Source: Chytriomyces cf. hyalinus JEL632 (taxonomy: Eukaryota > Chytridiomycota > Chytridiomycetes > Chytridiales > Chytriomycetaceae). Taken from it: 64,000 nucleotides of DNA. A program made the position numbers and the translations under genes. Positions 13,710 through 64,000 of the stretch are shown here, one piece after another. The notes beneath the pieces were generated by a model. That model was not told where the DNA came from, ran no database searches, and saw only the letters and a list, made by a program, of their open reading frames with translations. Each line of letters begins with the position of its first letter. Position 1 is the stretch's first letter. The stretch lies in contig JAIWWG010000102.1 of assembly GCA_025435555.1 (NCBI GenBank), forward strand, positions 37,957-101,956. Reading direction: 5' to 3'.

Positions 13710-13751
<42 letters not shown>

Positions 13752-15433: not shown

Positions 15434-15465
<32 letters not shown>

Positions 15466-37088: not shown

Positions 37089-37106
37089 TTAAGGTTAAGA
37101 TTAGGG
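37089..37106. repeat. degenerate telomere-like seam
   Basis: TTAAGGTTAAGATTAGGG, three TTAGGG-like units with changes, lying exactly between the LRR pseudogene's truncated 5' end and the poly-T (poly-A on the minus strand) of the minus-strand retroelement. Confidence 0.8.
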
Positions 37107-38663: not shown

Positions 38664-38700
38664 TTTAGGATTAAACTTAAAGTTAAGGTTAGGATTAGGG
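38664..38700. repeat. degenerate telomere-like seam
   Basis: TTTAGGATTAAACTTAAAG then TTAAGGTTAGGATTAGGG: about six imperfect TTAGGG-like units between the 5' end of the minus-strand LINE and element A. It is the longest seam in the array. Confidence 0.8.
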
Positions 38701-38701
38701 C

Positions 38702-41525
38702 TGGTCCATCCCACTCCCATCCACGTTCTGTCGATGCTCCCAACCCATCTACGCAGCAGGACATGTGCTTATGCCTGGAATTGCTGCGAACGAGCTTTGA
38801 AAGCCCTGCTGTGGGGTACATCGCGGGTGCATCACAGTGCGATGCACACACCGCGGTACCTGCAGTAGGCGCTCCCCTCCCGGGAAGTACTTCTCGCTCC
38901 TCGCTCTTGAACAATACTCACACACCAAACCGTGCTAGAACTCAAGAGTTGATCAACGAGGCCTGGGAACACTTCCTGTCATGGGTCCGAAATGCTGCGT
39001 CAAAGTCAATTGGTGTCCTCCAAGTCTCTGACCATCTGCCATCGGAGTTTTGGACTGATGAGCTTGAACAAAGTCGGGACAACGTGCAGCAAGAACTTGC
39101 GAACGTGCAACAGGAAATCGAGCGTGGCCAGTTGTCTCGTCTCGAAATCAAACGCCTTGCTTCCGAACTGACCAACACTCAGCGTGCTTACCGGGCGGAT
39201 CTGACCACACGCAAGCGCGTGCTCTTCGAAGATGCTGTCGATAAGCTCACAGTCCCACAAAACATGTCCTCGTTCATGCGCATGGTAAAAGGAGCCAAGT
39301 CGCGAAAAGACCGCACTGTCTGCAAACTGGACCCGGCGAAAATCAATGAACACGCTGCCCATTTTCGAACTACCTTTGGAGCACCTCCGACTGGACATCC
39401 CCAACCTGGACCCCCTGCGCTTGAGGAAATCCAGTCGCGTCCAACTCAGGAAGTCTTCAACCCGGATGCGATCATGTCTGCGATTGCTGGACTCCCACTC
39501 GGAAAGGCTACTGGATCCGATGGAATTCCTGCTGAACTCATCAAAGCCGGTGGCGATCTCATGGCTGACGTTCTCAGTGTTTTCCTGCCCATGGTCCATG
39601 CTGCTGCAACTATTCCATCTGACTGGAGGAAGGCGCTCATTGTGCCAGTCTTCAAGAAGAAGGGATCTGATCAGGACATTGCAAACTACCGACCTATTGC
39701 ACTGACAAGTACGATACGACGACTCTACGAGCGGCTGCTTGTTCCTGAACTTGGACCCGTAATGCAACAACTCGATGACTTTCAAGGTGGCTTCAGACCC
39801 GGTCGGTCCTCGCTCGATCAAGCCATGGTTCTCCACGAAACCCTGAACACCAATGAACATGCTTCGACTATCCTGCTGGACATCAAAGCGGCATATGACG
39901 AAGTCGATCGAAGGGTTCTTTGGCAAATGCTCACACAAGTCTTCGGCCTGGACGAATTCATGCTTGCACGGCTCCAGGATCTTTTCGATCACAACTCGTG
40001 CTGTCTGGTGGTGGCTGGCGTGATTAGTGATCCGATTGACAACGAACGAGGTCTTTTGCAGGGTGCTACTCTGTCCCCGATTTTGTTCAACTGTCACATC
40101 CATGGTCTCTCAATTCGGCTACGTGCTCCTGGAATCCCGCGAATTCGAATCAACGGTATCCATCTCAATAACCTCCTGTTTGCAGACGATACGTCCTTGG
40201 TAGCTGCAAATCAACATGATCTCGCAGTCCTGCTCCGAACGTGTGAGGAATGGTCCAACACTGTCGGCATCCGGTTCTCGCCATCCAAGTGCATCTATCT
40301 CGGTCCTGTTCCAGCACTACGTGATGTACCTCTCAAGCTCTACAACGTGGACCTTCCATCCCAGCAATGTGCCCCGTATCTCGGCATCCCTTTTGGCCAA
40401 CACGGAATCAACTGGGCTCTGCTGGCAAAGGAACGAACTTCAAAAGCGCGTGGTGTCATTGTGGCGCTGGCATCGGTAGGTATGAATGCAATGGGCTGGG
40501 CTCCTGCAGCTTCTGTTACTATCTACAGGAGTTTCATTCGGCCGGTCCTTGAATATGGCATTGCTCTCAAGCTCCCATCCGCGTCCACGCTCAAGTTGTA
40601 CGAGTCGGTCCAACGTCTTGCACTACGGACTCTCACATCAACACCCCGCAACACGTCCACTGCCGCTCTCCACAAGCTGCTGCAAGTCGAACCATTCAAA
40701 CACCGTGCTACCGAGCTCAATCTCATGTGGTCCTCCCGATTGCATAACTCAACTGATCGTTCTATCCCGGCTGTTCGTTTCTGGCGCGGCGCTCTGCTTG
40801 GTGCTGACAAACCATTTCAGGAATGTCTTCCCCGCCTTGCTCGCTCCAACCCACTTGTGACTCATGTGGATGCTAAATGGATTGATTTTCGACAGCAACC
40901 ACTGGTTCCCCCACCTCCAGCTGAAGTTCCGTTCCGGTACCCTCCGAAGCCAAAACAAGCGCTGTCTGACAATGCTCGCAAGAAGCTGCGCAAGGAATCC
41001 ATCGTCAACCTGGACAACAACCTGGACACCATTGCTGGCGCAATCCAAGTCGAAACCAAAGACCCAGTCCGGCCGTATCTGACTGCCTGCAAGGGAATTG
41101 ACCGCAAGACACGCAACAACATCCTTCGCTGGACTCTTGGTGCCGTCACCCGACACGAACCGTGCCTCAAGTGCAACGACGTACTGACCCGATCCCATGC
41201 TGCTGACTGTTCTGGTGCCACTGCTCTCCTGCGCATCAACTGGGACACGCTTGCACCTCCTGCCGGCCGAATGACCTGGCTTGATACGATCCTGAATGAA
41301 GTCCGGAATACACCGCCCTCCGAAATCGACACGTACACCGAAGTCTCTTCTGCCGTAGCTCTCATCTACACCGAATGTCGCCACCTCCAACAGCAAGCCA
41401 ATGGCTACTGGGCCGAGCCAGATGCACCCGCACGACCACTGCCGCCTCGAAGACCGCGAAATCGCATACCTCAACCCGGGGGAGCCCCGCTTGGGCGACC
41501 ACGGCAAAACCCGGAGCCTGGATAA
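38702..41525 (+). CDS. family-1 ORF2 (partial), element A
   Basis: About 940 codons, open to the TAA at 41523-41525. Contains the linker with one copy of the 'LELLRTSFESPAVG' unit, the full RT ('GSDGIPAELIKAGG', 'ANYRPIALTS', 'FQGGFRPGRSSLDQA', 'ILLDIKAAYDEVDR', 'GLLQGATLSPILFN', 'NNLLFADDTSLVA', 'PYLGIPFG') and the C-terminal Cys-His knuckle ('CLKCNDVLTRSHAADC'). About the first 332 residues, carrying the endonuclease, are missing. The open frame continues upstream through the telomere seam, which is not original. Confidence 0.92.
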
Positions 41526-41708
41526 TCAACCGTCAAGCCCGAACTGACCATACATATCTTATTACCTTTACCGATCATCTGTTTTCTTAACATTTCCGCA
41601 CTTTACTTCTGATTCTTTGGAGTTCTTGAACTTTTTTTGAGTGATTTTTGCTATCTTTCAACCCCGCACTTGTGTTACTGTGTAACTTGATTAAAAGAAA
41701 CTGAAAAC

Positions 41709-41720
41709 GTTAGAGTTAGG
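41709..41720. repeat. telomere-like seam A/B
   Basis: GTTAGAGTTAGG, one variant and one canonical unit, shared by the 3' end of A and the 5' edge of B. Confidence 0.85.
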
Positions 41721-41721
41721 C

Positions 41722-42096
41722 ATTGACGGAAATCGCCTTGACTCCACCCAGACAGAAAAAGCTGCCAAGCGCCTCGCGTTTTTGTGCAAAGCCGCACGTA
41801 CTGTCAATCTCCGTGCTGCCATCCTTGCCGGTGCCTCTCAGCAACTCAAGGAAGCCACGCAGAAAGTGTTTGAAACCATCCGAGGCTCCCCATCCGACTC
41901 CCTTCTTGCACCCCCACGCCCCCACCGTAGCGCGTTTGCGAAATTTGCTGCCCCAGACACACTGTCGCTAACTGATTTTGTGACTCTCGACCCAGTTCCG
42001 GAATCTACTGAGTTTGTCGATAGTCAAGACGATGTTGCCATGTCTGTGTCCAATCTGGATCTTGGTCCCGCGGCTGACGCCGCCGACCAAGAATGA
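41722..42096 (+). CDS. family-1 ORF1 C-terminal part, element B
   Basis: The last about 125 codons of ORF1 ('LDSTQTEKAAKRLAFLCKAA' to 'ADAADQE'), ending in TGA that overlaps the ORF2 ATG (ATGA at 42093). The 5' two thirds are removed by truncation at the seam. Confidence 0.85.
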   Translation: MDGNRLDSTQTEKAAKRLAFLCKAARTVNLRAAILAGASQQLKEATQKVFETIRGSPSDSLLAPPRPHRSAFAKFAAPDTLSLTDFVTLDPVPESTEFVDSQDDVAMSVSNLDLGPAADAADQE

Positions 42097-45000
42097 TCAA
42101 AATCGCATTTTCGAATCTCAACGGGCTGTCTGGCAAAGCCGAAGAAGTCCTGAGATTCAAGTCTGCGCAATCTGTTGACCTTTCTTTAATGGTGGAAACG
42201 TGGCTCTCCCCAACATCCTCCATTCCTTTTCGACCACACCTATTTAATATCACAAGTACAAACACGGAGGCAATTGCGGGAGGTCGGCGCAATTTTGGCG
42301 GCATTTTGGCGTTCTCAACTGCAACTCTCTCCCCCCAATTCCGAGTTATCTATGAAGATCCCTTGGGGTTCTATTGCGCAATGCGCATCTCTGATCTTAT
42401 CCTCATCACTGCCTACATCCCCCCCTCTGCTGACAATCGGGTAATCGGGGACATGCTTCAAAAAGCGGAAACGTTATCTGAAGGCTTTACGTTGCGTTGT
42501 CTTTTGGTTGGCGATCTGAACGCACGGATGACGGATGCTGGTGATTCACTCACAAACACACGTGGAACGTATATGCAGCAGGAACTGTTCAACTCTGGAC
42601 TTGCGCTTCAAATCCCGGAGTCTGGGAAATGGACGTCGTGGGCTGGTGGTGGTCGAGGGATTCCGGATGTTGTACTCTCGAGCTTCCCAGTCTCTAACCT
42701 CACAGTTCATGAAGGCGAGTCACTTGGAGGTTCGGACCATCGGCCGCTGACATTTTCTGTGCCACTGGATGTCGAAACCAAGCCCAAGTCTTTTGCGCGC
42801 TGGAATGTTCGTCGCCTCACAACTGCCAAATACCATCAGCGTTTTGCTGAGGAGCTGGAGTCCACGCAGCAGGAGATCATGGATCAACTGGAATTGCTGC
42901 GAACACGCTTGGAAAGCCCTGCTGTGGGATACGTTGCGGGTGTATCACAGTGCGATGCACACACCGTGGCACCTGCAGTAGGCGCCAACCCTCCGGGAAG
43001 TACTTCCCATGCTTCTCTTGATCCTGTTACCCACACTGCAGATTGCCCCAGAGCCACCACTCACATGTCTGACAGTCCTTCTCAGTCCGCTGGTCCATCC
43101 CACTCCCATCCACGTTCTGTCGATGCTCCCAACCCATCTACGCAGCAGGACATGTGCTTATGCCTGGAATTGCTGCGAACGAGCTTTGAAAGCCCTGCTG
43201 TGGGGTACATCGCGGGTGCATCACAGTGCGATGCACACACCGCGGTACCTGCAGTAGGCGCTCCCCTCCCGGGAAGTACTTCTCGCTCCTCGCTCTTGAA
43301 CAATACTCACACACCAAACCGTGCTAGAACTCAAGAGTTGATCAACGAGGCCTGGGAACACTTCCTGTCATGGGTCCGAAATGCTGCGTCAAAGTCAATT
43401 GGTGTCCTCCAAGTCTCTGACCATCTGCCATCGGAGTTTTGGACTGATGAGCTTGAACAAAGTCGGGACAACGTGCAGCAAGAACTTGCGAACGTGCAAC
43501 AGGAAATCGAGCGTGGCCAGTTGTCTCGTCTCGAAATCAAACGCCTTGCTTCCGAACTGACCAACACTCAGCGTGCTTACCGGGCGGATCTGACCACACG
43601 CAAGCGCGTGCTCTTCGAAGATGCTGTCGATAAGCTCACAGTCCCACAAAACATGTCCTCGTTCATGCGCATGGTAAAAGGAGCCAAGTCGCGAAAAGAC
43701 CGCACTGTCTGCAAACTGGACCCGGCGAAAATCAATGAACACGCTGCCCATTTTCGAACTACCTTTGGAGCACCTCCGACTGGACATCCCCAACCTGGAC
43801 CCCCTGCGCTTGAGGAAATCCAGTCGCGTCCAACTCAGGAAGTCTTCAACCCGGATGCGATCATGTCTGCGATTGCTGGACTCCCACTCGGAAAGGCTAC
43901 TGGATCCGATGGAATTCCTGCTGAACTCATCAAAGCCGGTGGCGATCTCATGGCTGACGTTCTCAGTGTTTTCCTGCCCATGGTCCATGCTGCTGCAACT
44001 ATTCCATCTGACTGGAGGAAGGCGCTCATTGTGCCAGTCTTCAAGAAGAAGGGATCTGATCAGGACATTGCAAACTACCGACCTATTGCACTGACAAGTA
44101 CGATACGACGACTCTACGAGCGGCTGCTTGTTCCTGAACTTGGACCCGTAATGCAACAACTCGATGACTTTCAAGGTGGCTTCAGACCCGGTCGGTCCTC
44201 GCTCGATCAAGCCATGGTTCTCCACGAAACCCTGAACACCAATGAACATGCTTCGACTATCCTGCTGGACATCAAAGCGGCATATGACGAAGTCGATCGA
44301 AGGGTTCTTTGGCAAATGCTCACACAAGTCTTCGGCCTGGACGAATTCATGCTTGCACGGCTCCAGGATCTTTTCGATCACAACTCGTGCTGTCTGGTGG
44401 TGGCTGGCGTGATTAGTGATCCGATTGACAACGAACGAGGTCTTTTGCAGGGTGCTACTCTGTCCCCGATTTTGTTCAACTGTCACATCCATGGTCTCTC
44501 AATTCGGCTACGTGCTCCTGGAATCCCGCGAATTCGAATCAACGGTATCCATCTCAATAACCTCCTGTTTGCAGACGATACGTCCTTGGTAGCTGCAAAT
44601 CAACATGATCTCGCAGTCCTGCTCCGAACGTGTGAGGAATGGTCCAACACTGTCGGCATCCGGTTCTCGCCATCCAAGTGCATCTATCTCGGTCCTGTTC
44701 CAGCACTACGTGATGTACCTCTCAAGCTCTACAACGTGGACCTTCCATCCCAGCAATGTGCCCCGTATCTCGGCATCCCTTTTGGCCAACACGGAATCAA
44801 CTGGGCTCTGCTGGCAAAGGAACGAACTTCAAAAGCGCGTGGTGTCATTGTGGCGCTGGCATCGGTAGGTATGAATGCAATGGGCTGGGCTCCTGCAGCT
44901 TCTGTTACTATCTACAGGAGTTTCATTCGGCCGGTCCTTGAATATGGCATTGCTCTCAAGCTCCCATCCGCGTCCACGCTCAAGTTGTACGAGTCGGTCC

Positions 45001-45914
45001 AACGTCTTGCACTACGGACTCTCACATCAACACCCCGCAACACGTCCACTGCCGCTCTCCACAAGCTGCTGCAAGTCGAACCATTCAAACACCGTGCTAC
45101 CGAGCTCAATCTCATGTGGTCCTCCCGATTGCATAACTCAACTGATCGTTCTATCCCGGCTGTTCGTTTCTGGCGCGGCGCTCTGCTTGGTGCTGACAAA
45201 CCATTTCAGGAATGTCTTCCCCGCCTTGCTCGCTCCAACCCACTTGTGACTCATGTGGATGCTAAATGGATTGATTTTCGACAGCAACCACTGGTTCCCC
45301 CACCTCCAGCTGAAGTTCCGTTCCGGTACCCTCCGAAGCCAAAACAAGCGCTGTCTGACAATGCTCGCAAGAAGCTGCGCAAGGAATCCATCGTCAACCT
45401 GGACAACAACCTGGACACCATTGCTGGCGCAATCCAAGTCGAAACCAAAGACCCAGTCCGGCCGTATCTGACTGCCTGCAAGGGAATTGACCGCAAGACA
45501 CGCAACAACATCCTTCGCTGGACTCTTGGTGCCGTCACCCGACACGAACCGTGCCTCAAGTGCAACGACGTACTGACCCGATCCCATGCTGCTGACTGTT
45601 CTGGTGCCACTGCTCTCCTGCGCATCAACTGGGACACGCTTGCACCTCCTGCCGGCCGAATGACCTGGCTTGATACGATCCTGAATGAAGTCCGGAATAC
45701 ACCGCCCTCCGAAATCGACACGTACACCGAAGTCTCTTCTGCCGTAGCTCTCATCTACACCGAATGTCGCCACCTCCAACAGCAAGCCAATGGCTACTGG
45801 GCCGAGCCAGATGCACCCGCACGACCACTGCCGCCTCGAAGACCGCGAAATCGCATACCTCAACCCGGGGGAGCCCCGCTTGGGCGACCACGGCAAAACC
45901 CGGAGCCTGGATAA
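42093..45914 (+). CDS. family-1 ORF2: APE endonuclease-reverse transcriptase (intact)
   Basis: 1273 aa without a stop. Residues about 1-230 are an apurinic-endonuclease-like domain: 'FSNLNGLSGKAEE', 'MVETWLSPTSS', 'ITAYIPPSADN', 'LLVGDLNARM' (near residue 150) and 'GGSDHRPLTFS' (near 215). Residues about 265-405 are a linker with an internal duplication of 'LELLRT-x2-ESPAVG' at 92-residue spacing. The RT spans about 540-870, with the catalytic 'FADD' near 826-829. The end holds a C-x2-C-x-H-x-C knuckle ('CLKCNDVLTRSHAADC') and a Pro/Arg-rich tail. The protein would nick the target and reverse-transcribe the element RNA. The ATG overlaps the ORF1 stop, so re-initiation is likely. It is one of two intact family-1 ORF2 copies (B, D). 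Confidence 0.95.
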   Translation: MIKIAFSNLNGLSGKAEEVLRFKSAQSVDLSLMVETWLSPTSSIPFRPHLFNITSTNTEAIAGGRRNFGGILAFSTATLSPQFRVIYEDPLGFYCAMRISDLILITAYIPPSADNRVIGDMLQKAETLSEGFTLRCLLVGDLNARMTDAGDSLTNTRGTYMQQELFNSGLALQIPESGKWTSWAGGGRGIPDVVLSSFPVSNLTVHEGESLGGSDHRPLTFSVPLDVETKPKSFARWNVRRLTTAKYHQRFAEELESTQQEIMDQLELLRTRLESPAVGYVAGVSQCDAHTVAPAVGANPPGSTSHASLDPVTHTADCPRATTHMSDSPSQSAGPSHSHPRSVDAPNPSTQQDMCLCLELLRTSFESPAVGYIAGASQCDAHTAVPAVGAPLPGSTSRSSLLNNTHTPNRARTQELINEAWEHFLSWVRNAASKSIGVLQVSDHLPSEFWTDELEQSRDNVQQELANVQQEIERGQLSRLEIKRLASELTNTQRAYRADLTTRKRVLFEDAVDKLTVPQNMSSFMRMVKGAKSRKDRTVCKLDPAKINEHAAHFRTTFGAPPTGHPQPGPPALEEIQSRPTQEVFNPDAIMSAIAGLPLGKATGSDGIPAELIKAGGDLMADVLSVFLPMVHAAATIPSDWRKALIVPVFKKKGSDQDIANYRPIALTSTIRRLYERLLVPELGPVMQQLDDFQGGFRPGRSSLDQAMVLHETLNTNEHASTILLDIKAAYDEVDRRVLWQMLTQVFGLDEFMLARLQDLFDHNSCCLVVAGVISDPIDNERGLLQGATLSPILFNCHIHGLSIRLRAPGIPRIRINGIHLNNLLFADDTSLVAANQHDLAVLLRTCEEWSNTVGIRFSPSKCIYLGPVPALRDVPLKLYNVDLPSQQCAPYLGIPFGQHGINWALLAKERTSKARGVIVALASVGMNAMGWAPAASVTIYRSFIRPVLEYGIALKLPSASTLKLYESVQRLALRTLTSTPRNTSTAALHKLLQVEPFKHRATELNLMWSSRLHNSTDRSIPAVRFWRGALLGADKPFQECLPRLARSNPLVTHVDAKWIDFRQQPLVPPPPAEVPFRYPPKPKQALSDNARKKLRKESIVNLDNNLDTIAGAIQVETKDPVRPYLTACKGIDRKTRNNILRWTLGAVTRHEPCLKCNDVLTRSHAADCSGATALLRINWDTLAPPAGRMTWLDTILNEVRNTPPSEIDTYTEVSSAVALIYTECRHLQQQANGYWAEPDAPARPLPPRRPRNRIPQPGGAPLGRPRQNPEPG
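42888..43298 (+). repeat. internal duplication in the ORF2 linker
   Basis: Two copies (about 135 nt each) start at 42888 and 43164, 276 nt (92 codons) apart. They share the frame and read 'LELLRTRLESPAVGYVAG' and 'LELLRTSFESPAVGYIAG', then 'QCDAHT' and 'PAVGA'. The same duplication is present in D (55591 and 55867) and F, so it predates these insertions. Confidence 0.85.
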
Positions 45915-46097
45915 TCAACCGTCAAGCCCGAACTGACCATACATATCTTATTACCTTTACCGATCATCTGTTTTCTTAACATTTCCGCACTTTACTTCTG
46001 ATTCTTTGGAGTTCTTGAACTTTTTTTGAGTGATTTTTGCTATCTTTCAACCCCGCACTTGTGTTACTGTGTAACTTGATTAAAAGAAACTGAAAAC

Positions 46098-46110
46098 GTT
46101 AGAGTTAGGG
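46098..46110. repeat. telomere-like seam B/C
   Basis: GTTAGAGTTAGGG at the end of B; the first base of C follows at 46111. Confidence 0.85.
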
Positions 46111-46778
46111 GATTCTTTACAAAAAACGAGTGCGGTGCTGGAAATTAGTCCAACAGCCCACCATCAACAGCAACAGCTACAGCAACGTCAGACAGTGCTC
46201 TCAGTCCCGGCACTCTACTCAGGAACATCTAGGAAGCACATTGGTGTTCTTTCTGGAACAAAGCAACGGTAAGTGAGTGAGTTGTTGTTTACTAACTCCA
46301 CACTCTCTACACAGACTCTCTTAAATCGAGTCGGATCGATCTCAAACCACTCTGGTTGTGATCGCCGGCATCGAAAACCTTGTATCTGCGACAAAGGCGG
46401 CTGCCTATCGTCGCGCGTTCTCGTTTTACGTTGGTGTTGTTGTGTGCTGTCAAAGTACACAATCACCAACCAACTCCATCAAAAACCGTCGGACACGCTC
46501 CAAATCACAGGAGCACGGTCTCGCGGACCCATCAAAACAATCGACGGCGGTGATCACGGCGTTGTATCGAATTTGAGAGCGCCGGTGAGTGTTCTTTATT
46601 TCCTTACAACTCAACACCCCCTCTCTCCACAGGCGACAGTCCCCCAGACCTGGGATTTACTGTCTGACCCCTCTCGCGGTACCCGAATCCAACCGCGCTT
46701 TCGAAAACCGGCTGCCACGTTCGCTTCGCGCGCGGCTGGTTCTTCTTCTGTTTCTTTTTTGTCCGGACAGTCCGGACT

Positions 46779-48905
46779 TTGCAACAAAAAGTGTCCAGTG
46801 GCGAACAATACGCACAGGCTGAGAAAGACCTGTGGAAACTCGCTCAAGGCCGTTTATTCTGTTTCATCTGTGGCAAAGAGAAGCTCTCAGCCGGCGGAAC
46901 AGGAAATCCCAACGCGCTTGGAGTCAGAAGCACATCGCTTTGCTGTCGACACAACTCCACCTGTTCCAGACCACGTCTTCTCAGATTCTGCCTGAACCTG
47001 GGAAGTGATCCGAAACTCCAAGATATTGTGGAAAAAGCTAAAGAAGTTCACCAACTTTACTTAGATCTTCTTGCGGAGCGGAAAATGGCACCAAAAACTA
47101 CAACACTTCCAGCTAAGAATCAAAAAGCAATTACATCATGCTTTCCCTCGACACTCACCCAAAACACAGGTACTTCATCATCACAAGGAGTACCATGCAC
47201 ACAATCGCAATCTTCCGAGACTGGAGTCCCCGACTCCCTGGATCCAGACGCTGTGTTGGTCAATGCCACGCAGACGTCGAAACTTGATTCACAGGAGATT
47301 ATTCTCGCACCAGACTCTCAGATTTCGGACTTTGATGCAGCAATTGACTCAGCCATTGAATCACAAACTTCAACGATGGTGTCAAAAACACCATCACGTA
47401 AACGCGCACGACCTGTATCGACACCATCGCCTGCCCAGGTGCCACCATCGGCGGCAATGTCAGACATGGATTTTGACCTTGCTAACTGTCCAGCAAGTCC
47501 AACCCCAGCCACAGGCATGGAATCACTCATGGATGAACGTGATGGTGGTGACCACCAAGCCACCGAAATCGCGGCGCTGTCGGAGATCTTTGGGATTAAT
47601 GAAGCTAAGGCCAAAAATCTTAACGATTTTTTTAACTCGAAAAACTCGAAAGTTAAAAAAGACATTACAGCCTCCCTCAAAAGTGAACTTCGAAAAAAAG
47701 ACGCGATTATCAAACAGCAACAGCAACGAATCGCGGATCTGGAGGCACTGCTGGAGTCACGAATGGCTCCCAGTGACCACGAACTTGTATCGGGCCCGCC
47801 GCCGCCGCCAAAACCAACCACGCAACAGATGCAGCCACGGGGATTGAAGATGGGGAGAGGTGGGGGAGTGCAGCGTAGCTCACGATCGAAGAGTGCTGCT
47901 CGGAGATCGTATGCGGCTGCCGCAGCGAAGCCAGCTGCTGGGGATGTTGGAGCTGGGAAAGGGAAGGAACCAGAAAGTGCACGCGCAGTTTCGAAACCAC
48001 CCCACAAGCGTCAGCAGCAACCACAGCCGCAGCAACCCAAGCGCCTGAACTTCGAACAGAAGGTCAGAGTGCGAAAATTGAATCATATCGCCAATATCCA
48101 GACAGCATCAAATGCGGATTTTATCGCAAACTTGAAACTGATCCAGGAAAATCGCGCGAATGCACAAACGGCACCAGCTCCTCGGGCGAGTGTCGTTTAT
48201 CGAAATATTTTTATTGAAAACCCCCTCGGTAACAGCACAGATCTTGTCACAGATCCATTTGTCAAAATTCGATCCATCTTGTTTGATCTCTACAAAGTCC
48301 CCCGGTCTATTCGCGAGATCTCATTTGTTGGCGTCAAAAAGTCTGTGCTGGAGCTGTTCATCAGAGACTCGGATCTGGATGAAGCTGTCGCTAATCTGTC
48401 CAATCCGGGGAGTGATTTACCAGCAATTTTTATTACCACTAACATCCTCGACACACCCAAACACAGAATCTTCGAGAAGCTGAGTGCAAGTCGCATGGAG
48501 CGGGCAACCATCCTGCGTCGCGGAATCATGCTCGAGCGTGCGATGCGCCAGGGCGTGAGAGTGATGCAGGAGATTGCTCGTTCCAATGTCGACGAATTCA
48601 CAGCATATCAGATTGAGGCTTGTGCAAGTCATATTTATTTTGAAAATAATTTGAACTTCCAATTCCCAAATTCTGTCACCCGCACTAACTTTGAAGAGAA
48701 AAAATCCCAAGCACAGGAACGGCTGCCAGAAACTCCAGAACGGATCAAGTTTCCATTGTCGGTGCCATCTTCACGTGTTGGTTCGAGTACCTTGTCGCAG
48801 TCTGAGCTCATGGCACAGGCAAAGAATTTTGCTTATGCCAGTCTCAAAGCCCGGCTGCACAGGAAAATCTGGAATCTTAGCGCAGAATCCGGGGAGTCTC
48901 AATGA
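46779..48905 (+). CDS. family-2 ORF1 (nucleic-acid-binding protein)
   Basis: An open frame of up to 708 codons. The first ATG in frame is at 47085, but sequence upstream of it already encodes a Cys cluster ('FCFICGKEKLSAGG', 'GNPNALG', 'CCRHNSTC') with the same layout as the N-terminal zinc finger of family-1 ORF1 (C-x2-4-C, GNPN-x-x-G, C-x2-6-C). So translation may start at a non-ATG codon or after a splice in the 5' region. The middle part is Gln/Ser/Pro-rich with a coiled-coil-like Lys/Gln stretch, and the C-terminal part (about 450-640) is folded ('DPFVKIRSILFDLYKVP', 'VGVKKSVLELFIRDSD'). The stop overlaps the ORF2 start as ATGA at 48902. Confidence 0.8.
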   Translation: MQQKVSSGEQYAQAEKDLWKLAQGRLFCFICGKEKLSAGGTGNPNALGVRSTSLCCRHNSTCSRPRLLRFCLNLGSDPKLQDIVEKAKEVHQLYLDLLAERKMAPKTTTLPAKNQKAITSCFPSTLTQNTGTSSSQGVPCTQSQSSETGVPDSLDPDAVLVNATQTSKLDSQEIILAPDSQISDFDAAIDSAIESQTSTMVSKTPSRKRARPVSTPSPAQVPPSAAMSDMDFDLANCPASPTPATGMESLMDERDGGDHQATEIAALSEIFGINEAKAKNLNDFFNSKNSKVKKDITASLKSELRKKDAIIKQQQQRIADLEALLESRMAPSDHELVSGPPPPPKPTTQQMQPRGLKMGRGGGVQRSSRSKSAARRSYAAAAAKPAAGDVGAGKGKEPESARAVSKPPHKRQQQPQPQQPKRLNFEQKVRVRKLNHIANIQTASNADFIANLKLIQENRANAQTAPAPRASVVYRNIFIENPLGNSTDLVTDPFVKIRSILFDLYKVPRSIREISFVGVKKSVLELFIRDSDLDEAVANLSNPGSDLPAIFITTNILDTPKHRIFEKLSASRMERATILRRGIMLERAMRQGVRVMQEIARSNVDEFTAYQIEACASHIYFENNLNFQFPNSVTRTNFEEKKSQAQERLPETPERIKFPLSVPSSRVGSSTLSQSELMAQAKNFAYASLKARLHRKIWNLSAESGESQ

Positions 48906-52884: not shown

Positions 52885-52896
52885 GTTAGAGTTAGG
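52885..52896. repeat. telomere-like seam C/D
   Basis: GTTAGAGTTAGG, followed immediately by eight A and the 5' end of D. Confidence 0.85.
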
Positions 52897-52915
52897 AAAA
52901 AAAAGTCTGTTTGAA

Positions 52916-54799: not shown

Positions 54800-57700
54800 T
54801 CAAAATCGCATTTTCGAATCTCAACGGGCTGTCTGGCAAAGCCGAAGAAGTCCTGAGATTCAAGTCTGCGCAATCTGTTGACCTTTCTTTAATGGTGGAA
54901 ACGTGGCTCTCTCCAACATCCTCCATTCCTTTCCGACCACACCTATTTAATATCACAAGTACAAACACGGAGGCGATCGCGGGAGGTCGGCGCAATTTTG
55001 GCGGCATTTTGGCGTTCTCAACTGCAACCCTCTCCCCCCAATTCCGAGTTATCTATGAAGATCCCTTGGGGTTCTATTGCGCAATGCGCATCTCTGATCT
55101 TATCCTCATCACTGCCTACATCCCCCCCTCTGCTGACAATCGGGTAATCGGGGACATGCTCCAAAAAACGGAAACGTTATCTGAAGGCTTTACGTTGCGT
55201 TGTCTTTTGGTTGGTGATCTGAACGCACGGATGACGGATGCTGGTGATTCACTCACAAACACACGTGGAACGTATATGCAGCAGGAACTGCTCAACTCTG
55301 GACTTGCGCTTCAAATCCCGGAGTCTGGGAAATGGACGTCGTGGGCTGGTGGTGGTCGAGGGATTCCGGATGTTGTACTCTCGAGCTTCCCAGTCTCTAA
55401 CCTCACAGTTCATGAAGGCGAGTCACTTGGAGGTTCGGACCATCGGCCGCTGACATTTTCTGTGCCACTGGATGTCGAAACCAAGCCCAAGTCTTTTGCG
55501 CGCTGGAATGTTCGTCGCCTCACAACTGCCAAATACCATCAGCGTTTTGCTGAGGAGCTGGAGTCTACGCAGCAGGAGATCTTGGATCAACTGGAATTGC
55601 TGCGAACACGCTTGGAAAGCCCTGCTGTGGGATACGTTGCGGGTGTATCACAGTGCGATGCACACACCGTGGCACCTGCAGTAGGCGCCAACCCTCCGGG
55701 AAGTACTTCCCATGCTTCTCTTGATCCTGTTACTCACACTGCGGATTGCCCCAGAGCCACCACTCACATGTCTGACAGTCCTTCTCAGTCCGCTGGTCCA
55801 TCCCACTCCCATCCACGTTCTGTCGATGCTCCCAACCCATCTACGCAGCAGGACATGTGCTTATGCCTGGAATTGCTGCGAACGAGCTTTGAAAGCCCTG
55901 CTGTGGGGTACGTCGCGGGTGCATCACAGTGCGATGCACACACCGCGGTACCTGCAGTAGGCGCTCCCCTCCCGGGAAGTACTTCTCGCTCCTCGCTCCT
56001 GAACAATACTCACACACCAAACCGTGCTAGAACTCAAGAGTTGATCAACGAGGCCTGGGAACACTTCCTGTCATGGGTCCGAAATGCTGCGTCAAAGTCA
56101 ATTGGTGTCCTCCAAGTCTCTGACCATCTGCCATCAGAGTTTTGGACTGATGAGCTTGAACAAAGTCGGGACAACATGCAGCAAGAACTTGCGAACGTGC
56201 AACAGGAAATCGAGCGTGGCCAGTTGTCTCGTCTCGAAATCAAACGCCTTGCTTCCGAACTGACCAACACTCAGCGTGCTTACCGGGCGGATCTGACCAC
56301 ACGCAAGCGCGTGCTCTTCGAAGATGCTGTCGATAAGCTCACAGTCCCACAAAACATGTCCTCGTTCATGCGCATGGTAAAAGGAGCCAAGTCGCGAAAA
56401 GACCGCACTGTCTGCAAACTGGACCCGGCGAAAATCAATGAACACGCTGCCCATTTTCGAACTACCTTTGGAGCACCTCCGACTGGACATCCCCAACCTG
56501 GACCCCCTGCGCTTGAGGAAATCCAGTCGCGTCCAACTCAGGAAGTCTTCAACCCGGATGCGATCATGGCTGCGATTGCTGGACTCCCACTCGGAAAGGC
56601 TACTGGATCCGATGGAATTCCTGCTGAACTCATCAAAGCCGGTGGCGATCTCATGGCTGACGTTCTCAGTGTTTTTCTGCCCATGGTCCATGCTGCTGCA
56701 ACTATTCCATCTGACTGGAGGAAGGCGCTCATTGTGCCAGTCTTCAAGAAGAAGGGATCTGATCAGGACATTGCAAACTACCGACCCATTGCACTGACGT
56801 GTACGATACGACGACTCTACGAGCGGCTGCTTGTTCCTGAACTTGGACCCGTAATGCAACAACTCGATGACTTTCAAGGTGGCTTCAGACCCGGTCGGTC
56901 CTCGCTCGATCAAGCCATGGTTCTCCACGAAACCCTGAACACCAATGAACATGCTTCGACTATCCTGCTGGACATCAAAGCGGCATATGACGAAGTCGAT
57001 CGAAGGGTTCTTTGGCAAATGCTCACACAAGTCTTCGGCCTGGACGAATTCATGCTTGCACGGCTCCAGGATCTTTTCGATCACAACTCGTGCTGTCTGG
57101 TGGTGGCTGGCGTGATTAGTGATCCGATTGACAACGAACGAGGTCTTTTGCAGGGTGCTACTCTGTCCCCGATTTTGTTCAACTGTCACATCCATGGTCT
57201 CTCAATTCGGCTACGTGCTCCTGGAATCCCGCGAATTCGAATCAACGGTATCCATCTCAATAACCTCCTGTTTGCAGACGATACGTCCTTGGTAGCTGCA
57301 AATCAACATGATCTCGCAGTCCTGCTCCGAACGTGTGAGGAATGGTCCAACACTGTCGGCATCCGGTTCTCGCCATCCAAGTGCATCTATCTCGGTCCTG
57401 TTCCAGCACTACGTGATGTACCTCTCAAGCTCTACAACGTGGACCTTCCATCCCAGCAATGTGCCCCGTATCTCGGCATCCCTTTTGGCCAACACGGAAT
57501 CAACTGGGCTCTGCTGGCAAAGGAACGAACTTCAAAAGCGCGTGGTGTCATTGTGGCGCTGGCGTCGGTAGGTATGAATGCAATGGGCTGGGCTCCTGCA
57601 GCTTCTGTTACTATCTACAGGAGTTTCATTCGGCCGGTTCTTGAATATGGCATTGCTCTCAAGCTCCCATCCGCGTCCACGCTCAAGTTGTACGAGTCGG

Positions 57701-58617
57701 TCCAACGTCTTGCACTACGGACTCTCACATCAACACCCCGCAACACGTCCACTGCCGCTCTCCACAAGCTGCTGCAAGTCGAACCATTCAAACACCGTGC
57801 TACCGAGCTCAATCTCATGTGGTCCTCCCGATTGCATAACTCAACTGATCGTTCTATCCCGGCTGTTCGTTTCTGGCGCGGCGCTCTGCTTGGTGCTGAC
57901 AAACCATTTCAGGAATGTCTTCCCCGCCTTGCTCGCTCCAACCCACTTGTGACTCATGTGGATGCTAAATGGATTGATTTTCGACAGCAACCACTGGTTC
58001 CCCCACCTCCAGCTGAAGTTCCGTTCCGGTACCCTCCGAAGCCAAAACAAGCGCTGTCTGACAATGCTCGCAAGAAGCTGCGCAAGGAATCCATCGTCAA
58101 CCTGGACAACAACCTGGACACCATTGCTGGCGCAATCCAAGTCGAAACCAAAGACCCAGTCCGGCCGTATCTGACTGCCTGCAAGGGAATTGACCGCAAG
58201 ACACGCAACAACATCCTTCGCTGGACTCTTGGTGCCGTCACCCGACACGAACCGTGCCTCAAGTGCAACGACGTACTGACCCGATCCCATGCTGCTGACT
58301 GTTCTGGTGCCACTGCTCTCCTGCGCATCAACTGGGACACGCTTGCACCTCCTGCCGGCCGAATGACCTGGCTTGATACGATCCTGAATGAAGTCCGGAA
58401 TACACCGCCCTCCGAAATCGACACGTACACCGAAGTCTCTTCTGCCGTAGCTCTCATCTACACCGAATGTCGCCACCTCCAACAGCAAGCCAATGGCTAC
58501 TGGGCCGAGCCAGATGCACCCGCACGACCACTGCCGCCTCGAAGACCGCGAAATCGCATACCTCAACCCGGGGGAGCCCCGCTTGGGCGACCACGGCAAA
58601 ACCCGGAGCCTGGATAA
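54796..58617 (+). CDS. family-1 ORF2 (element D, intact)
   Basis: 1273 aa, the same architecture as in element B (endonuclease, duplicated linker, RT, C-terminal Cys-His knuckle). All endonuclease and RT catalytic blocks are retained ('LLVGDLNARM', 'SDHRPL', 'FADD'). Differences from B include Ala-to-Thr near residue 128, Phe-to-Leu near 168, Met-to-Leu near 263 and Ser-to-Cys in the RT 'ALTS/CTIRR' block; none hits a catalytic residue. This and ORF1 make D the best candidate for an autonomous source copy in the window. Confidence 0.95.
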   Translation: MIKIAFSNLNGLSGKAEEVLRFKSAQSVDLSLMVETWLSPTSSIPFRPHLFNITSTNTEAIAGGRRNFGGILAFSTATLSPQFRVIYEDPLGFYCAMRISDLILITAYIPPSADNRVIGDMLQKTETLSEGFTLRCLLVGDLNARMTDAGDSLTNTRGTYMQQELLNSGLALQIPESGKWTSWAGGGRGIPDVVLSSFPVSNLTVHEGESLGGSDHRPLTFSVPLDVETKPKSFARWNVRRLTTAKYHQRFAEELESTQQEILDQLELLRTRLESPAVGYVAGVSQCDAHTVAPAVGANPPGSTSHASLDPVTHTADCPRATTHMSDSPSQSAGPSHSHPRSVDAPNPSTQQDMCLCLELLRTSFESPAVGYVAGASQCDAHTAVPAVGAPLPGSTSRSSLLNNTHTPNRARTQELINEAWEHFLSWVRNAASKSIGVLQVSDHLPSEFWTDELEQSRDNMQQELANVQQEIERGQLSRLEIKRLASELTNTQRAYRADLTTRKRVLFEDAVDKLTVPQNMSSFMRMVKGAKSRKDRTVCKLDPAKINEHAAHFRTTFGAPPTGHPQPGPPALEEIQSRPTQEVFNPDAIMAAIAGLPLGKATGSDGIPAELIKAGGDLMADVLSVFLPMVHAAATIPSDWRKALIVPVFKKKGSDQDIANYRPIALTCTIRRLYERLLVPELGPVMQQLDDFQGGFRPGRSSLDQAMVLHETLNTNEHASTILLDIKAAYDEVDRRVLWQMLTQVFGLDEFMLARLQDLFDHNSCCLVVAGVISDPIDNERGLLQGATLSPILFNCHIHGLSIRLRAPGIPRIRINGIHLNNLLFADDTSLVAANQHDLAVLLRTCEEWSNTVGIRFSPSKCIYLGPVPALRDVPLKLYNVDLPSQQCAPYLGIPFGQHGINWALLAKERTSKARGVIVALASVGMNAMGWAPAASVTIYRSFIRPVLEYGIALKLPSASTLKLYESVQRLALRTLTSTPRNTSTAALHKLLQVEPFKHRATELNLMWSSRLHNSTDRSIPAVRFWRGALLGADKPFQECLPRLARSNPLVTHVDAKWIDFRQQPLVPPPPAEVPFRYPPKPKQALSDNARKKLRKESIVNLDNNLDTIAGAIQVETKDPVRPYLTACKGIDRKTRNNILRWTLGAVTRHEPCLKCNDVLTRSHAADCSGATALLRINWDTLAPPAGRMTWLDTILNEVRNTPPSEIDTYTEVSSAVALIYTECRHLQQQANGYWAEPDAPARPLPPRRPRNRIPQPGGAPLGRPRQNPEPG

Positions 58618-58800
58618 TCAACCGTCAAGCCGAACTGACCATACATATCTTATTACCTTTACCGATCATCTGTTTTCTTAACATTTCCGCACTTTACTTC
58701 TGATTCTTTGGAGTTCTTGAACTTTTTTGAGTGATTTTTGCTATCTTTCAACCCCGCCACTTGTGTTACTGTGTAACTTGATTAAAAGAAACTGAAAAAC

Positions 58801-58813
58801 GTTAGGGTTAGGG
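58801..58813. repeat. telomere-like seam D/E
   Basis: GTTAGGGTTAGGG, two canonical units. It differs from the proximal seams (GTTAGAG) by one base. Confidence 0.85.
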
Positions 58814-59285
58814 CTTGCAACCTCCTGCCGGCCGAATGACCTGGCTTGATACGATCCTGAATGAAGTCCGGAATACACCGCCCTCCGAAATCGACACGTA
58901 CACCGAAGTCTCTTCTGCCGTAGCTCTCATCTACACCGAATGTCGCCACCTCCAACAGCAAGCCAATGGCTACTGGGCCGAGCCAGATGCACCCGCACGA
59001 CCACTGCCGCCTCGAAGACCGCGAAATCGCATACCTCAACCCGGGGGAGCCCCGCTTGGGCGACCACGGCAAAACCCGGAGCCTGGATAATCAACCGTCA
59101 AGCCCGAACTGACCATACATATCTTATTACCTTTACCGATCATCTGTTTTCTTAACATTTCCGCACTTTACTTCTGATTCTTTGGAGTTCTTGAACTTTT
59201 TTTGAGTGATTTTTGCTATCTTTCAACCCCGCACTTGTGTTACTGTGTAACTTGATTAAAAGAAACTGAAAACGTTAGGGTTAGG
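58814..59285 (+). mobile_element. family-1 LINE, element E (severely 5' truncated)
   Basis: Only the last 472 nt: the end of ORF2 (from the 'PAGRMTWLDTILNEV' region) and the 3' UTR, closing with GTTAGGGTTAGG. One extra A lies at its left edge relative to the other copies (GCAACCTCC versus GCACCTCC). Confidence 0.93.
59274..59285. repeat. telomere-like seam E/F
   Basis: GTTAGGGTTAGG followed by six A and the 5' leader of F. Confidence 0.85.
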
Positions 59286-59302
59286 AAAAAAGTCTGTTTG
59301 AA

Positions 59303-61186
59303 ATGTCCACGGTCATCAAAAGCAGCAGCACCAACACCAAGCACCCGTTCGTGATGCTGGAGCTCAACATCGCAAAGCGCCTCAAGGGGACGGCTCGCTG
59401 TCCCGTGGCGGGATGCGGGTCGGCCTCTCTGAAGAGCCTTGGGGTGGGAGGGAATCCGAACCAGTTTGGGTTCTCCACCATCCAAATGCAGTGCACCACG
59501 TGCACCAAACGTTGCAGACTCAACGCAGCGCTGAAGGCAGGAGGGTCGGCCTCTGCGGACCTGTACGCAGAGTGGGAGAAGGCTTTCGGTAAGCTGGTCC
59601 CAGTCACTTCCACCACAGGCACAGCAGCAAAGCGCCGCCGCCAGAACTCCGAAGCAGACACTGCCACTGCAGTCTCTACTTCCACACCCAGTGCTTCCCA
59701 GAGTCGTCTGATCCAACAGACCCTCTCATTTGCTGCAGCCACCGCTGGCCGCTCTGTGGATCAGCCACCAGCAGGCTCAGCAGGCTCAGCAAGCACAGCA
59801 ACAACCTCAACAACCAATCTCACCACCCCAGCTGGTTCCGCAGGCCTTCCACAGAGCGAATTCAGCTTCATGGCACCCGCGCCAGCCATGCAGACCACCG
59901 CTGCAGCCTCCGAAATGTCGCCATCAGTGATTTCGAATGCATTTCCACCCCCTGCTGTGCCTGCCACAGCTGTCAACTGGCAGCAGCGTGCAGAGGCAGC
60001 AGAGGCCGCTACAGCTTCCCTTCAGACGCAGCTGCAGTCCCTGATTGCGCTGCTGGCCCAGCTGGTCACCCAGATGCAGCAGGGCTCAGTTGGTGTGGGT
60101 AAGTCATCAGGCACAGCAAATGAGTGTCAGCCAACTGTGGCGCAGCCATTGAGCACAGCAACAGCCCTCTTGGCTTCCATCAGTGCTTCAACTGCTCCCA
60201 CGCTCGCAGCACCAACTCCCAATGGAGCCCAGTCCACCCACGTGCAGCCCCATGTGCGTACCTCTCGAAAAAGCGGTCGTGGAGGTCGCACTGGACCTGG
60301 AGGGCGTATTGTCCCAGGTGCTGCCCCTGCCTCAACAACAACTGTTTCTGTACCCGTTGCTGTTGAAAACACTTCCACACAGGTTGTTGAAGCCGCCTGG
60401 TCCACTGTTGCACGTAATGGAACGCGTCGTGCCCCTCCACCATCTTGCGAATCTCGTCAACGCGCGCCGCAAACTCAGCAGCAGTATGATGAAAAAACAC
60501 ACCGCATGCGTCAAAAGAAGGCATTACAGATGGCGAAAGCTGTCCCTGAACCGAAAAAGTTTGCAGTGATCCGTGTTGAACTCCACAGCAGTCGTCAGTT
60601 GCGCGGATGTTCCTTCCGGGACCGGAAACATTTGATCGATGCGTTTGTGGGACAGATGGGGGTTCGCCACAATGTGGCTCTTACCTCATCTATTGGTAAC
60701 TCCATCATTGAGCTGTATTGTCCGACTGATGTTGTTCTGGAAGTGGTGCGAGTTCTTAGGGAGCGTGGCCAACAAGTCCTCCTTGCAGCCTTCAACCCAC
60801 TCATATCCGACATTGACGGAAATCGCCTTGACTCCACCCAGACAGAAAAAGCTGCCAAGCGCCTCGCGTTTTTGTGCAAAGCCGCACGTACTGTCAATCT
60901 CCGTGCTGCCATCCTTGCCGGTGCCTCTCAGCAACTCAAGGAAGCCACGCAGAAAGTGTTTGAAACCATCCGAGGCTCCCCATCCGACTCCCTTCTTGCA
61001 CCCCCACGCCCCCACCGTAGCGCGTTTGCGAAATTTGCTGCCCCAGACACACTGTCGCTAACTGATTTTGTGACTCTCGACCCAGTTCCGGAATCTACTG
61101 AGTTTGTCGATAGTCAAGACGATGTTGCCATGTCTGTGTCCAATCTGGATCTTGGTCCCGCGGCTGACGCCGCCGACCAAGAATGA
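59303..61186 (+). CDS. family-1 ORF1 (element F, intact)
   Basis: 627 aa, nearly identical to ORF1 of D (changes include Ala-to-Val near residue 100, Cys-to-Arg near 111 and Ala-to-Val near 361). Same zinc cluster, coiled coil and C-terminal domain. The ATG is 17 nt from the seam, and the stop overlaps the ORF2 start at 61183. Confidence 0.92.
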   Translation: MSTVIKSSSTNTKHPFVMLELNIAKRLKGTARCPVAGCGSASLKSLGVGGNPNQFGFSTIQMQCTTCTKRCRLNAALKAGGSASADLYAEWEKAFGKLVPVTSTTGTAAKRRRQNSEADTATAVSTSTPSASQSRLIQQTLSFAAATAGRSVDQPPAGSAGSASTATTSTTNLTTPAGSAGLPQSEFSFMAPAPAMQTTAAASEMSPSVISNAFPPPAVPATAVNWQQRAEAAEAATASLQTQLQSLIALLAQLVTQMQQGSVGVGKSSGTANECQPTVAQPLSTATALLASISASTAPTLAAPTPNGAQSTHVQPHVRTSRKSGRGGRTGPGGRIVPGAAPASTTTVSVPVAVENTSTQVVEAAWSTVARNGTRRAPPPSCESRQRAPQTQQQYDEKTHRMRQKKALQMAKAVPEPKKFAVIRVELHSSRQLRGCSFRDRKHLIDAFVGQMGVRHNVALTSSIGNSIIELYCPTDVVLEVVRVLRERGQQVLLAAFNPLISDIDGNRLDSTQTEKAAKRLAFLCKAARTVNLRAAILAGASQQLKEATQKVFETIRGSPSDSLLAPPRPHRSAFAKFAAPDTLSLTDFVTLDPVPESTEFVDSQDDVAMSVSNLDLGPAADAADQE

Positions 61187-64000
61187 TCAAAATCGCATTT
61201 TCGAATCTCAACGGGCTGTCTGGCAAAGCCGAAGAAGTCCTGAGATTCAAGTCTGCGCAATCTGTTGACCTTTCTTTAATGGTGGAAACGTGGCTCTCCC
61301 CAACATCCTCCATTCCTTTTCGACCACACCTATTTAATATCACAAGTACAAACACGGAGGCAATTGCGGGAGGTCGGCGCAATTTTGGCGGCATTTTGGC
61401 GTTCTCAACTGCAACTCTCTCCCCCCAATTCCGAGTTATCTATGAAGATCCCTTGGGGTTCTATTGCGCAATGCGCATCTCTGATCTTATCCTCATCACT
61501 GCCTACATCCCCCCCTCTGCTGACAATCGGGTAATCGGGGACATGCTTCAAAAAGCGGAAACGTTATCTGAAGGCTTTACGTTGCGTTGTCTTTTGGTTG
61601 GCGATCTGAACGCACGGATGACGGATGCTGGTGATTCACTCACAAACACACGTGGAACGTATATGCAGCAGGAACTGTTCAACTCTGGACTTGCGCTTCA
61701 AATCCCGGAGTCTGGGAAATGGACGTCGTGGGCTGGTGGTGGTCGAGGGATTCCGGATGTTGTACTCTCGAGCTTCCCAGTCTCTAACCTCACAGTTCAT
61801 GAAGGCGAGTCACTTGGAGGTTCGGACCATCGGCCGCTGACATTTTCTGTGCCACTGGATGTCGAAACCAAGCCCAAGTCTTTTGCGCGCTGGAATGTTC
61901 GTCGCCTCACAACTGCCAAATACCATCAGCGTTTTGCTGAGGAGCTGGAGTCCACGCAGCAGGAGATCATGGATCAACTGGAATTGCTGCGAACACGCTT
62001 GGAAAGCCCTGCTGTGGGATACGTTGCGGGTGTATCACAGTGCGATGCACACACCGTGGCACCTGCAGTAGGCGCCAACCCTCCGGGAAGTACTTCCCAT
62101 GCTTCTCTTGATCCTGTTACCCACACTGCAGATTGCCCCAGAGCCACCACTCACATGTCTGACAGTCCTTCTCAGTCCGCTGGTCCATCCCACTCCCATC
62201 CACGTTCTGTCGATGCTCCCAACCCATCTACGCAGCAGGACATGTGCTTATGCCTGGAATTGCTGCGAAACGAGCTTTGAAAGCCCTGCTGTGGGGTACA
62301 TCGCGGGTGCATCACAGTGCGATGCACACACCGCGGTACCTGCAGTAGGCGCTCCCCTCCCGGGAAGTACTTCTCGCTCCTCGCTCTTGAACAATACTCA
62401 CACACCAAACCGTGCTAGAACTCAAGAGTTGATCAACGAGGCCTGGGAACACTTCCTGTCATGGGTCCGAAATGCTGCGTCAAAGTCAATTGGTGTCCTC
62501 CAAGTCTCTGACCATCTGCCATCGGAGTTTTGGACTGATGAGCTTGAACAAAGTCGGGACAACGTGCAGCAAGAACTTGCGAACGTGCAACAGGAAATCG
62601 AGCGTGGCCAGTTGTCTCGTCTCGAAATCAAACGCCTTGCTTCCGAACTGACCAACACTCAGCGTGCTTACCGGGCGGATCTGACCACACGCAAGCGCGT
62701 GCTCTTCGAAGATGCTGTCGATAAGCTCACAGTCCCACAAAACATGTCCTCGTTCATGCGCATGGTAAAAAGGAGCCAAGTCGCGAAAAGACCGCACTGT
62801 CTGCAAACTGGACCCGGCGAAAATCAATGAACACGCTGCCCATTTTCGAACTACCTTTGGAGCACCTCCGACTGGACATCCCCAACCTGGACCCCCTGCG
62901 CTTGAGGAAATCCAGTCGCGTCCAACTCAGGAAGTCTTCAACCCGGATGCGATCATGTCTGCGATTGCTGGACTCCCACTCGGAAAGGCTACTGGAATCC
63001 GATGGAATTCCTGCTGAACTCATCAAAGCCGGTGGCGATCTCATGGCTGACGTTCTCAGTGTTTTCCTGCCCATGGTCCATGCTGCTGCAACTATTCCAT
63101 CTGACTGGAGGAAGGCGCTCATTGTGCCAGTCTTCAAGAAGAAGGGATCTGATCAGGACATTGCAAACTACCGACCTATTGCACTGACAAGTACGATACG
63201 ACGACTCTACGAGCGGCTGCTTGTTCCTGAACTTGGACCCGTAATGCAACAACTCGATGACTTTCAAGGTGGCTTCAGACCCGGTCGGTCCTCGCTCGAT
63301 CAAGCCATGGTTCTCCACGAAACCCTGAACACCAATGAACATGCTTCGACTATCCTGCTGGACATCAAAGCGGCATATGACGAAGTCGATCGAAGGGTTC
63401 TTTGGCAAATGCTCACACAAGTCTTCGGCCTGGACGAATTCATGCTTGCACGGCTCCAGGATCTTTTCGATCACAACTCGTGCTGTCTGGTGGTGGCTGG
63501 CGTGATTAGTGATCCGATTGACAACGAACGAGGGTCTTTTGCAGGGTGCTACTCTGTCCCCGATTTTGTTCAACTGTCACATCCATGGTCTCTCAATTCG
63601 GCTACGTGCTCCTGGAATCCCGCGAATTCGAATCAACGGTATCCATCTCAATAACCTCCTGTTTGCAGACGATACGTCCTTGGTAGCTGCAAATCAACAT
63701 GATCTCGCAGTCCTGCTCCGAACGTGTGAGGAATGGTCCAACACTGTCGGCATCCGGTTCTCGCCATCCAAGTGCATCTATCTCGGTCCTGTTCCAGCAC
63801 TACGTGATGTACCTCTCAAGCTCTACAACGTGGACCTTCCATCCCAGCATGTGCCCCGTATCTCGGCATCCCTTTTGGCCAACACGGAATCAACTGGGCT
63901 CTGCTGGCAAAGGAACGAACTTCAAAAGCGCGTGGTGTCATTGTGGCGCTGGCATCGGTAGGTGAATGCAAGGGGGGCTCTGCAGCTTCTGTTACTATCT
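61183..64000 (+). pseudogene. family-1 ORF2 (element F, partial, frame-broken)
   Basis: Reads as in B through the endonuclease and first linker repeat, then the frame breaks at about 62268 (extra A in GAAACGAG). It breaks again at about 62770 (extra A in a run of A), 62997 (extra A), 63533 (extra G) and 63848 (missing A), and is disordered at 63961-64000. In the ORF2 stretch that can be compared, substitutions relative to B are essentially absent, so these are more likely read or assembly errors at a contig end than real decay. The RT catalytic 'FADD' block is still readable at about 63665. Confidence 0.8.

Follow-up and report, generated by a model that had tools for sequence, protein, structure and literature searches.

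Head-to-tail LINE arrays in a chytrid genome, probably built on a 12-bp duplication that re-creates the insertion target

The window discussed here is a stretch of 64,000 nucleotides from the chytrid Chytriomyces cf. hyalinus JEL632, bases 37,957-101,956 of a contig we call C5. At 38,700-64,000, six plus-strand long interspersed nuclear elements (LINEs) stand head to tail, five of one family (fam1) and one of another (fam2). An earlier note on this DNA had described such an arrangement, and direct repeats, BLAST to the complete copy D and a reading of the seams all bear it out. The note had begun the array at 38,664; the array is real, but it starts at about 38,700, with telomere-like letters from 38,682, and to its left lies a different LINE, T3. 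The right edge of the window is the end of C5 (101,956 nt), so the array runs off the contig. Neighboring elements are separated by 12-nt seams of the form GTTAG(A/G)GTTAGG, three in C5 with GTTAGAG and two with GTTAGGG. With at most one mismatch allowed, GTTAGGGTTAG matches the window seven times, always on the plus strand, against 0.28 expected in shuffles; five of these matches are the seams, and the other two overlap each other just before A, where the letters are telomere-like but degenerate. Measured against D, six further fam1 copies or pieces show 6-30 mismatches over 1.9-5.9 kb (0.1-0.6%), and the copies compared are therefore young or homogenised. Table 1 gives the coordinates.

Table 1. 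The array and the adjoining T3 copy, in window coordinates.
Feature	Position	Strand	Remarks
T3, poly(A)-tailed LINE of a different (distant) reverse transcriptase lineage, 5'-truncated	37107-38665	-	left of array
T3 reverse transcriptase ORF	37278-38720	-	Pfam run on window reverse transcriptase ORF only
Degenerate telomere-like stretch before A	38682-38699	+	last 12 nt (38688-38699, GTTAGGATTAGG) are the 5' flank of A
Element A, fam1, 5'-truncated	38700-41708	+	repeats, BLAST to D
12-nt seam GTTAGAGTTAGG between A and B	41709-41720	+	
Element B, fam1, 5'-truncated	41721-46097	+	
12-nt seam GTTAGAGTTAGG between B and C	46098-46109	+	
Element C, fam2	46110-52884	+	
ORF1 of C (fam2)	46779-48905	+	start uncertain
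ORF2 of C (fam2)	48902-52573	+	in-frame TGA at 50477-50479
12-nt seam GTTAGAGTTAGG between C and D	52885-52896	+	
Element D, complete fam1 copy	52897-58800	+	
ORF1 of D, 627 aa	52916-54799	+	
ORF2 of D, 1273 aa: APE endonuclease, reverse transcriptase, C-terminal Cys/His motif	54796-58617	+	ATGA overlap with ORF1
12-nt seam GTTAGGGTTAGG between D and E	58801-58812	+	
Element E, fam1, last 461 nt only	58813-59273	+	
12-nt seam GTTAGGGTTAGG between E and F	59274-59285	+	
Element F, fam1, 5' end complete	59286-64000	+	cut by end of contig C5

That these are LINEs with two open reading frames (ORFs) and an apurinic/apyrimidinic-type (APE) endonuclease, as the note had it, is upheld by profiles and fold alike. 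The two frames of fam2 overlap by ATGA at 48902-48905, as in D, and X, a family found elsewhere in the genome, has two long ORFs with a four-base overlap. ORF1 of D found no match in Pfam or NCBIfam. In ORF2 of fam1 and X, Exo_endo_phos_2 and RVT_1 both scored above the cut-off in a profile search, and so they did in fam2, where each half of the interrupted frame holds one of them. Endonuclease and reverse transcriptase thus share one ORF, and the model of the fam1 endonuclease has an APE fold (pLDDT 66.8, pTM 0.72, from three sequences only). The best Foldseek matches of this model were the TRAS1 and R1 endonucleases, with ties in a second comparison. By profile score, LINE-1 is nearer, with 197 bits over endonuclease and reverse transcriptase and 38-41 bits for the endonuclease alone, against 20 bits each for the R1 and TRAS1 endonucleases. 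By their ORF2 sequences, fam1 on the one hand and X with fam2 on the other appear to be two distantly related lineages that have target, seam length and 3' terminus in common.

Elsewhere in the genome are three more plus-strand families, X, Y and Z, whose 3' terminus is the same. The 3' end ACTGAAAAC stands directly against the seam in fam1, fam2, X and Y, without a poly(A) tail. There are at least 41 genome matches to the fam1 3' end and at least 18 to that of fam2, and a pattern for the common terminus has 101, where its reversed control has none. Flanks were read for 101 ends (a set partly different from the 101 pattern matches), and taking away 10 Z ends and one doubled end leaves 90. The seam letters are GTTAGGGTTAGG at 42 of the 90, GTTAGGG at 65, and GTTAGGG with at most one change at 84; the target core behind the 3' ends is GTTAGGG(TTA). 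Of the 87 occurrences of GTTAGGGTTAGG in the genome, 44 come directly after a known 3' end and two after 3' ends with small variants. Another 40 are in telomere-like tracts or in the C40 and C94 joints that are longer than usual, and the remaining one, in C92, is behind a T3 piece. At the opposite end of the element, the run of A that opens fam1 and X copies varies: of 40 counted, 39 have 5-10 letters and one has a single A, and three more have 9-13, perhaps because cDNA synthesis ends with slippage or with untemplated letters. The seams vary too: several of the variants in C5, C68, C78, C96, C137, C142 and C203 are G-to-A changes (GTTAGAG, GTTAAGG, GTTAGGA), which look as if the C-rich strand had decayed by C-to-T.

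The note had taken the seam for about two telomere repeats. The seams are not simply leftovers, however, and are best read as 12-bp target-site duplications whose letters belong to the locus. Three of the four single insertions tested, in C2, C221 and C202, are 5'-truncated copies outside telomere tracts with the identical 12 letters on both sides (GTTAGGGAATAG, GTTAGGGAGTAA and GTAAGGGTTAAC); together with the truncated copies A, B and E, they display the hallmarks of LINE insertion. Several arrays have 12 letters of their own, with agreement that stops at letter 13 (letter 14 in C198), and 12-mers with non-telomeric letters repeat along C10, C198 and C203. All seven seams read in C10 are GTTAGGGTTATG, a 12-mer that differs from the telomere repeat. 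Such locus-characteristic letters are expected when insertion after insertion enters a single duplicated site. Seams are uniform in eight of the 17 contigs with two or more ends (C10, C66, C94, C125, C137, C140, C198 and C203), three of which, C66, C94 and C125, carry the plain 12-mer. The shuffle test of the seams keeps the pool of 12-mers, not their ancestry, and is inflated by recombination copying; the copied unit of C10 was dropped from it.

Several observations pull the other way. C150 has GTTAGGGTTCGT at its 3' side and no copy of it at the 5' junction, where the best match has 6 of 12 letters wrong. Seams are not uniform in the other nine contigs (C4, C5, C48, C68, C78, C92, C96, C142 and C238; the two ends in C4 are separate insertions), at six ends (five on long contigs, one on C78) the site departs from GTTAGGG by more than one letter, and the flanks of element A differ from each other by two letters. 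Inside telomere tracts, a duplication and leftover repeats cannot be told apart, and the duplication reading gives no reason for insertions to reuse the 12-nt seam rather than varied places in long distal tracts. Recombination has copied some units, namely a 6128-bp unit in C10 and a truncation junction common to C66 and C78, and it could also spread a seam.

Some of these points would suit insertion of the SART or MoTeR type into long telomere tracts, with the seam as a remnant held at two repeats because longer interstitial tracts break. Some elements do lie directly behind telomere tracts, the C40 seam is three repeats long, the tract before T3 in C94 is about five, and letters differ within nine of 17 contigs; stable interstitial tracts of MoTeR are reported to be at most two repeats long (PMC7367193). 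Such an origin predicts neither exact 12-bp duplications outside telomere tracts nor the repeated non-telomeric 12-mers of C10, C198 and C203, and we consider it unlikely.

If the arrays had instead come mainly from recombination, with few real insertions and with unequal exchange or break-induced copying carrying a unit along together with its seam, the copied units of C10, C66 and C78 and the few mismatches among fam1 copies would be expected. Copying a single unit does not yield the same seam on different families and truncation points, which is what we see within one array in the window (A/B/C), in C10 and in C203 and which therefore counts against this origin, as do single copies with duplications of their own; we rate it as improbable, below the tract remnant. 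LINE reverse transcriptases can also jump between templates. Were the RNA to end in GUUAGGGUUAGG and the enzyme to jump from the 5' end of one RNA to the 3' end of the next, one event would yield head-to-tail joints with constant seams, but seam letters vary between loci and tend to agree within a locus, and solitary copies have the letters of their locus at both sides. We regard an RNA-templated seam of this kind as very improbable.

Position in the genome is most readily judged on contigs of at least 60 kb, which hold 46 of the 90 ends; the other 44 are on contigs of less than 49 kb, where position is little informative. On five of the long contigs are 19 ends with telomeric seams; none is more than 31 kb from the contig end it faces, and all 19 point their 3' ends to that near end. 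The 27 ends with other seams are spread over 17 contigs (seven belong to the one C10 array, those in C1 and C32 are doubtful as elements, and C231 repeats C202). Six of them lie within 31 kb of the end faced and 21 lie farther away, with 22 of the 27 still behind a site at most one letter off GTTAGGG. Insertion into telomere-register sequence, clustered at contig ends beside telomere tracts, was rightly called by the note. Its claim of specificity for telomere repeats survives in part: ends with telomeric seams are all near contig ends, but a minority of copies sit in non-telomeric DNA, which the note itself had named as grounds for giving the claim up. Since most of the ends with other seams still lie behind sites at most one letter off GTTAGGG, the sequences point to a short motif as the thing recognised. 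Telomeres would be where that motif is most abundant, and not the target in themselves.

C94 finishes with the array, about five TTAGGG, a 5'-truncated T3 piece and telomere repeats, in that order; C209 finishes with a fam1 copy broken at its position 5382 and then telomere-like repeats. In C111, 21 TTAGGG stand between other DNA and a 5'-truncated fam1, and in C60 and C113 a telomere tract precedes the start of X. Two adjacent pieces of contig C172 encode a telomerase RNA-binding domain, and with such a gene fragment present the sequences show no need for the arrays as the telomere cap that the note had thought possible. Repeats collapsed or chained by the assembler at contig ends might explain why 11 of the 13 contig termini compared lie inside an element, and why C202 and C231 have an identical stretch. 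We give an assembly artefact next to no credence, because many contigs, C68 (508 kb) among them, are built alike, and because C10, C198 and C203 have interior arrays with locus-specific seams.

Nicking of the target, target-primed reverse transcription and a second cut are established LINE biology, and from them a mechanism may be put together. The APE endonuclease of ORF2 would nick the C-rich strand precisely before GTTAGGG. The 3' end set free by the nick would serve as primer for reverse transcription, which would start at the ACUGAAAAC end of the RNA, and a cut of the second strand 12 nt further on would give the 12-bp duplication. With the recognition motif inside the duplication, every insertion would leave a target on either side of itself, and later insertions of any of these families, complete or 5'-truncated, could line up head to tail, separated by 12-nt seams. 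Ectopic recombination would then copy pieces of the arrays, and telomerase may heal broken ones. Most arrays would start in telomere repeats, since no other sequence is so rich in the motif, whose orientation would turn the 3' ends towards the chromosome end. That these are site-specific LINEs whose 12-bp duplication re-creates the target, such that insertions stack head to tail, is in our judgment highly probable. With less assurance, we lean towards a broader proposal: that the APE LINEs of this chytrid read a telomere-register motif of 7-10 bp, that their motif-containing 12-bp duplication spans exactly two telomere periods, that arrays can grow from a single non-telomeric GTTAGGG, that fam1 and X with fam2 share this target, that Z is a natural case of endonuclease retargeting, and that T3 runs in the opposite direction, as TRAS does to SART.

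Family Z was read at 10 ends, in C2 (two), C9, C21, C25, C46, C132, C147, C181 and C212. Each has nearly the fam1 3' terminus, followed by GTAACTTTTAGG (nine ends) or GCAACTTTTAGG (one), and by eye seven of the 10 continue into one dispersed repeat, for which there were 40 scored matches among 115 candidates. In L063, a copy of this Z-type repeat was read whose matching position is free of any element. In C181, the Z seam is followed by a fam1-like 5' start. T3 has 24 genome matches, and 13 of the 16 on contigs of at least 100 kb turn their 5' side to a contig end less than 30 kb away, a polarity opposite to that of the fam1, fam2 and X arrays; the exceptions are C182 and two on C165. Its poly(T) in the window (37107-37126) is preceded by degenerate telomere-like letters at 37089-37106, and 18 of 23 T3 poly(T) junctions, examined by eye, stand behind telomere-like letters, often degenerate, while five do not. 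Longer T3 copies in L013, L104 and L105 have broken frames, with only about 0.4 kb between ORF1 and the reverse transcriptase by eye.

Elsewhere in the window, an ORF with leucine-rich repeats (35789-37141, minus strand) directly adjoins the boundary of T3 and the array, and an ORF at 32533-33660 (plus strand) has an HNH_2 endonuclease domain. Gti1/Pac2 is a fungal protein family, and two of its genes lie at 5249-6058 and 9046-9954 on the minus strand; the ORFs at 11992-18857 (minus strand) resemble them by eye and may form a local gene cluster. Relatives of one Gti1/Pac2 protein of the window, among the matches listed, are in Chytriomyces and other chytrids, in keeping with the chytrid host that the note had proposed.

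What these elements offer is a readable rule for how head-to-tail LINE arrays can form at chromosome ends, in which the duplication re-creates the target. Plain telomere repeats do not allow the target motif, the nick position and the stagger to be read to the letter, but the insertions outside telomere tracts do. Set beside Z, the telomere-motif families are natural pairs for asking how a LINE endonuclease changes its target. Literature searches, with subscription papers mostly outside their scope, showed nothing on telomeric LINEs in chytrids among the papers listed.

Among the closest known systems is SART1 of Bombyx mori (R1 clade), which also has two ORFs and an APE endonuclease and inserts in telomere repeats. 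SART1 is poly(A)-tailed, and its insertion point is between the T and A of TTAGG, on the TTAGG strand; its sister TRAS1 inserts in the opposite direction, and for TRAS1, GTTAG is reported as essential for cleavage (PMC7265360). From that account, the polarity of SART1 would be that of the chytrid LINEs, 3' end towards the chromosome end. The chytrid elements differ in having no poly(A) tail, a joint directly before GTTAGGG and a 12-bp duplication. For SART and TRAS it has been suggested that they may be able to use short TTAGG sites elsewhere, most copies being telomeric (PMC7265360); in the chytrid, insertions at GTTAGGG sites outside telomere tracts are seen, with duplications. The likeness to SART/TRAS and MoTeR drawn by the note thus holds for SART in target and probably in polarity and gives way at the poly(A) tail, at the endonuclease of MoTeR and at its polarity; on the tail alone, the chytrid LINEs would fall outside SART/TRAS. 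TRAS1, likewise an APE-endonuclease element on telomere repeats, has the insertion direction of T3, and T3 and the arrays are LINEs of opposite polarity at the same ends, as are TRAS and SART in silkworm. The fungal telomeric LINEs, MoTeR1/2 of Magnaporthe and FoTeR of Fusarium, also have joints of telomere letters. Both have a restriction enzyme-like (REL) endonuclease and belong to a CRE-type clade with CRE/SLACS/CZAR (PMC7367193, PMC12857005). MoTeR turns its 5' ends to the chromosome end, forms head-to-tail arrays with joints of half a repeat to more than 20, and leaves relics inside chromosomes that retain a telomere stub (PMC7367193); the joints of FoTeR have been tabulated (PMC12857005). 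The chytrid elements have an APE endonuclease, not an REL one, and unlike MoTeR turn the 3' end outward at 19 of 19 ends with telomeric seams on contigs of at least 60 kb. HeT-A and TART, with their poly(A) side to the centromere, are matched in polarity by T3 and not by fam1, fam2 and X, which have the opposite polarity and no poly(A). Zepp of Chlorella and Tx1-1_ACar of Anolis are telomere-associated LINEs outside insects (PMC10088271), and we liken ours to them by description. To this company the arrays add, in a chytrid, a group of telomeric LINEs that is APE-type, poly(A)-less and 3'-end-outward.

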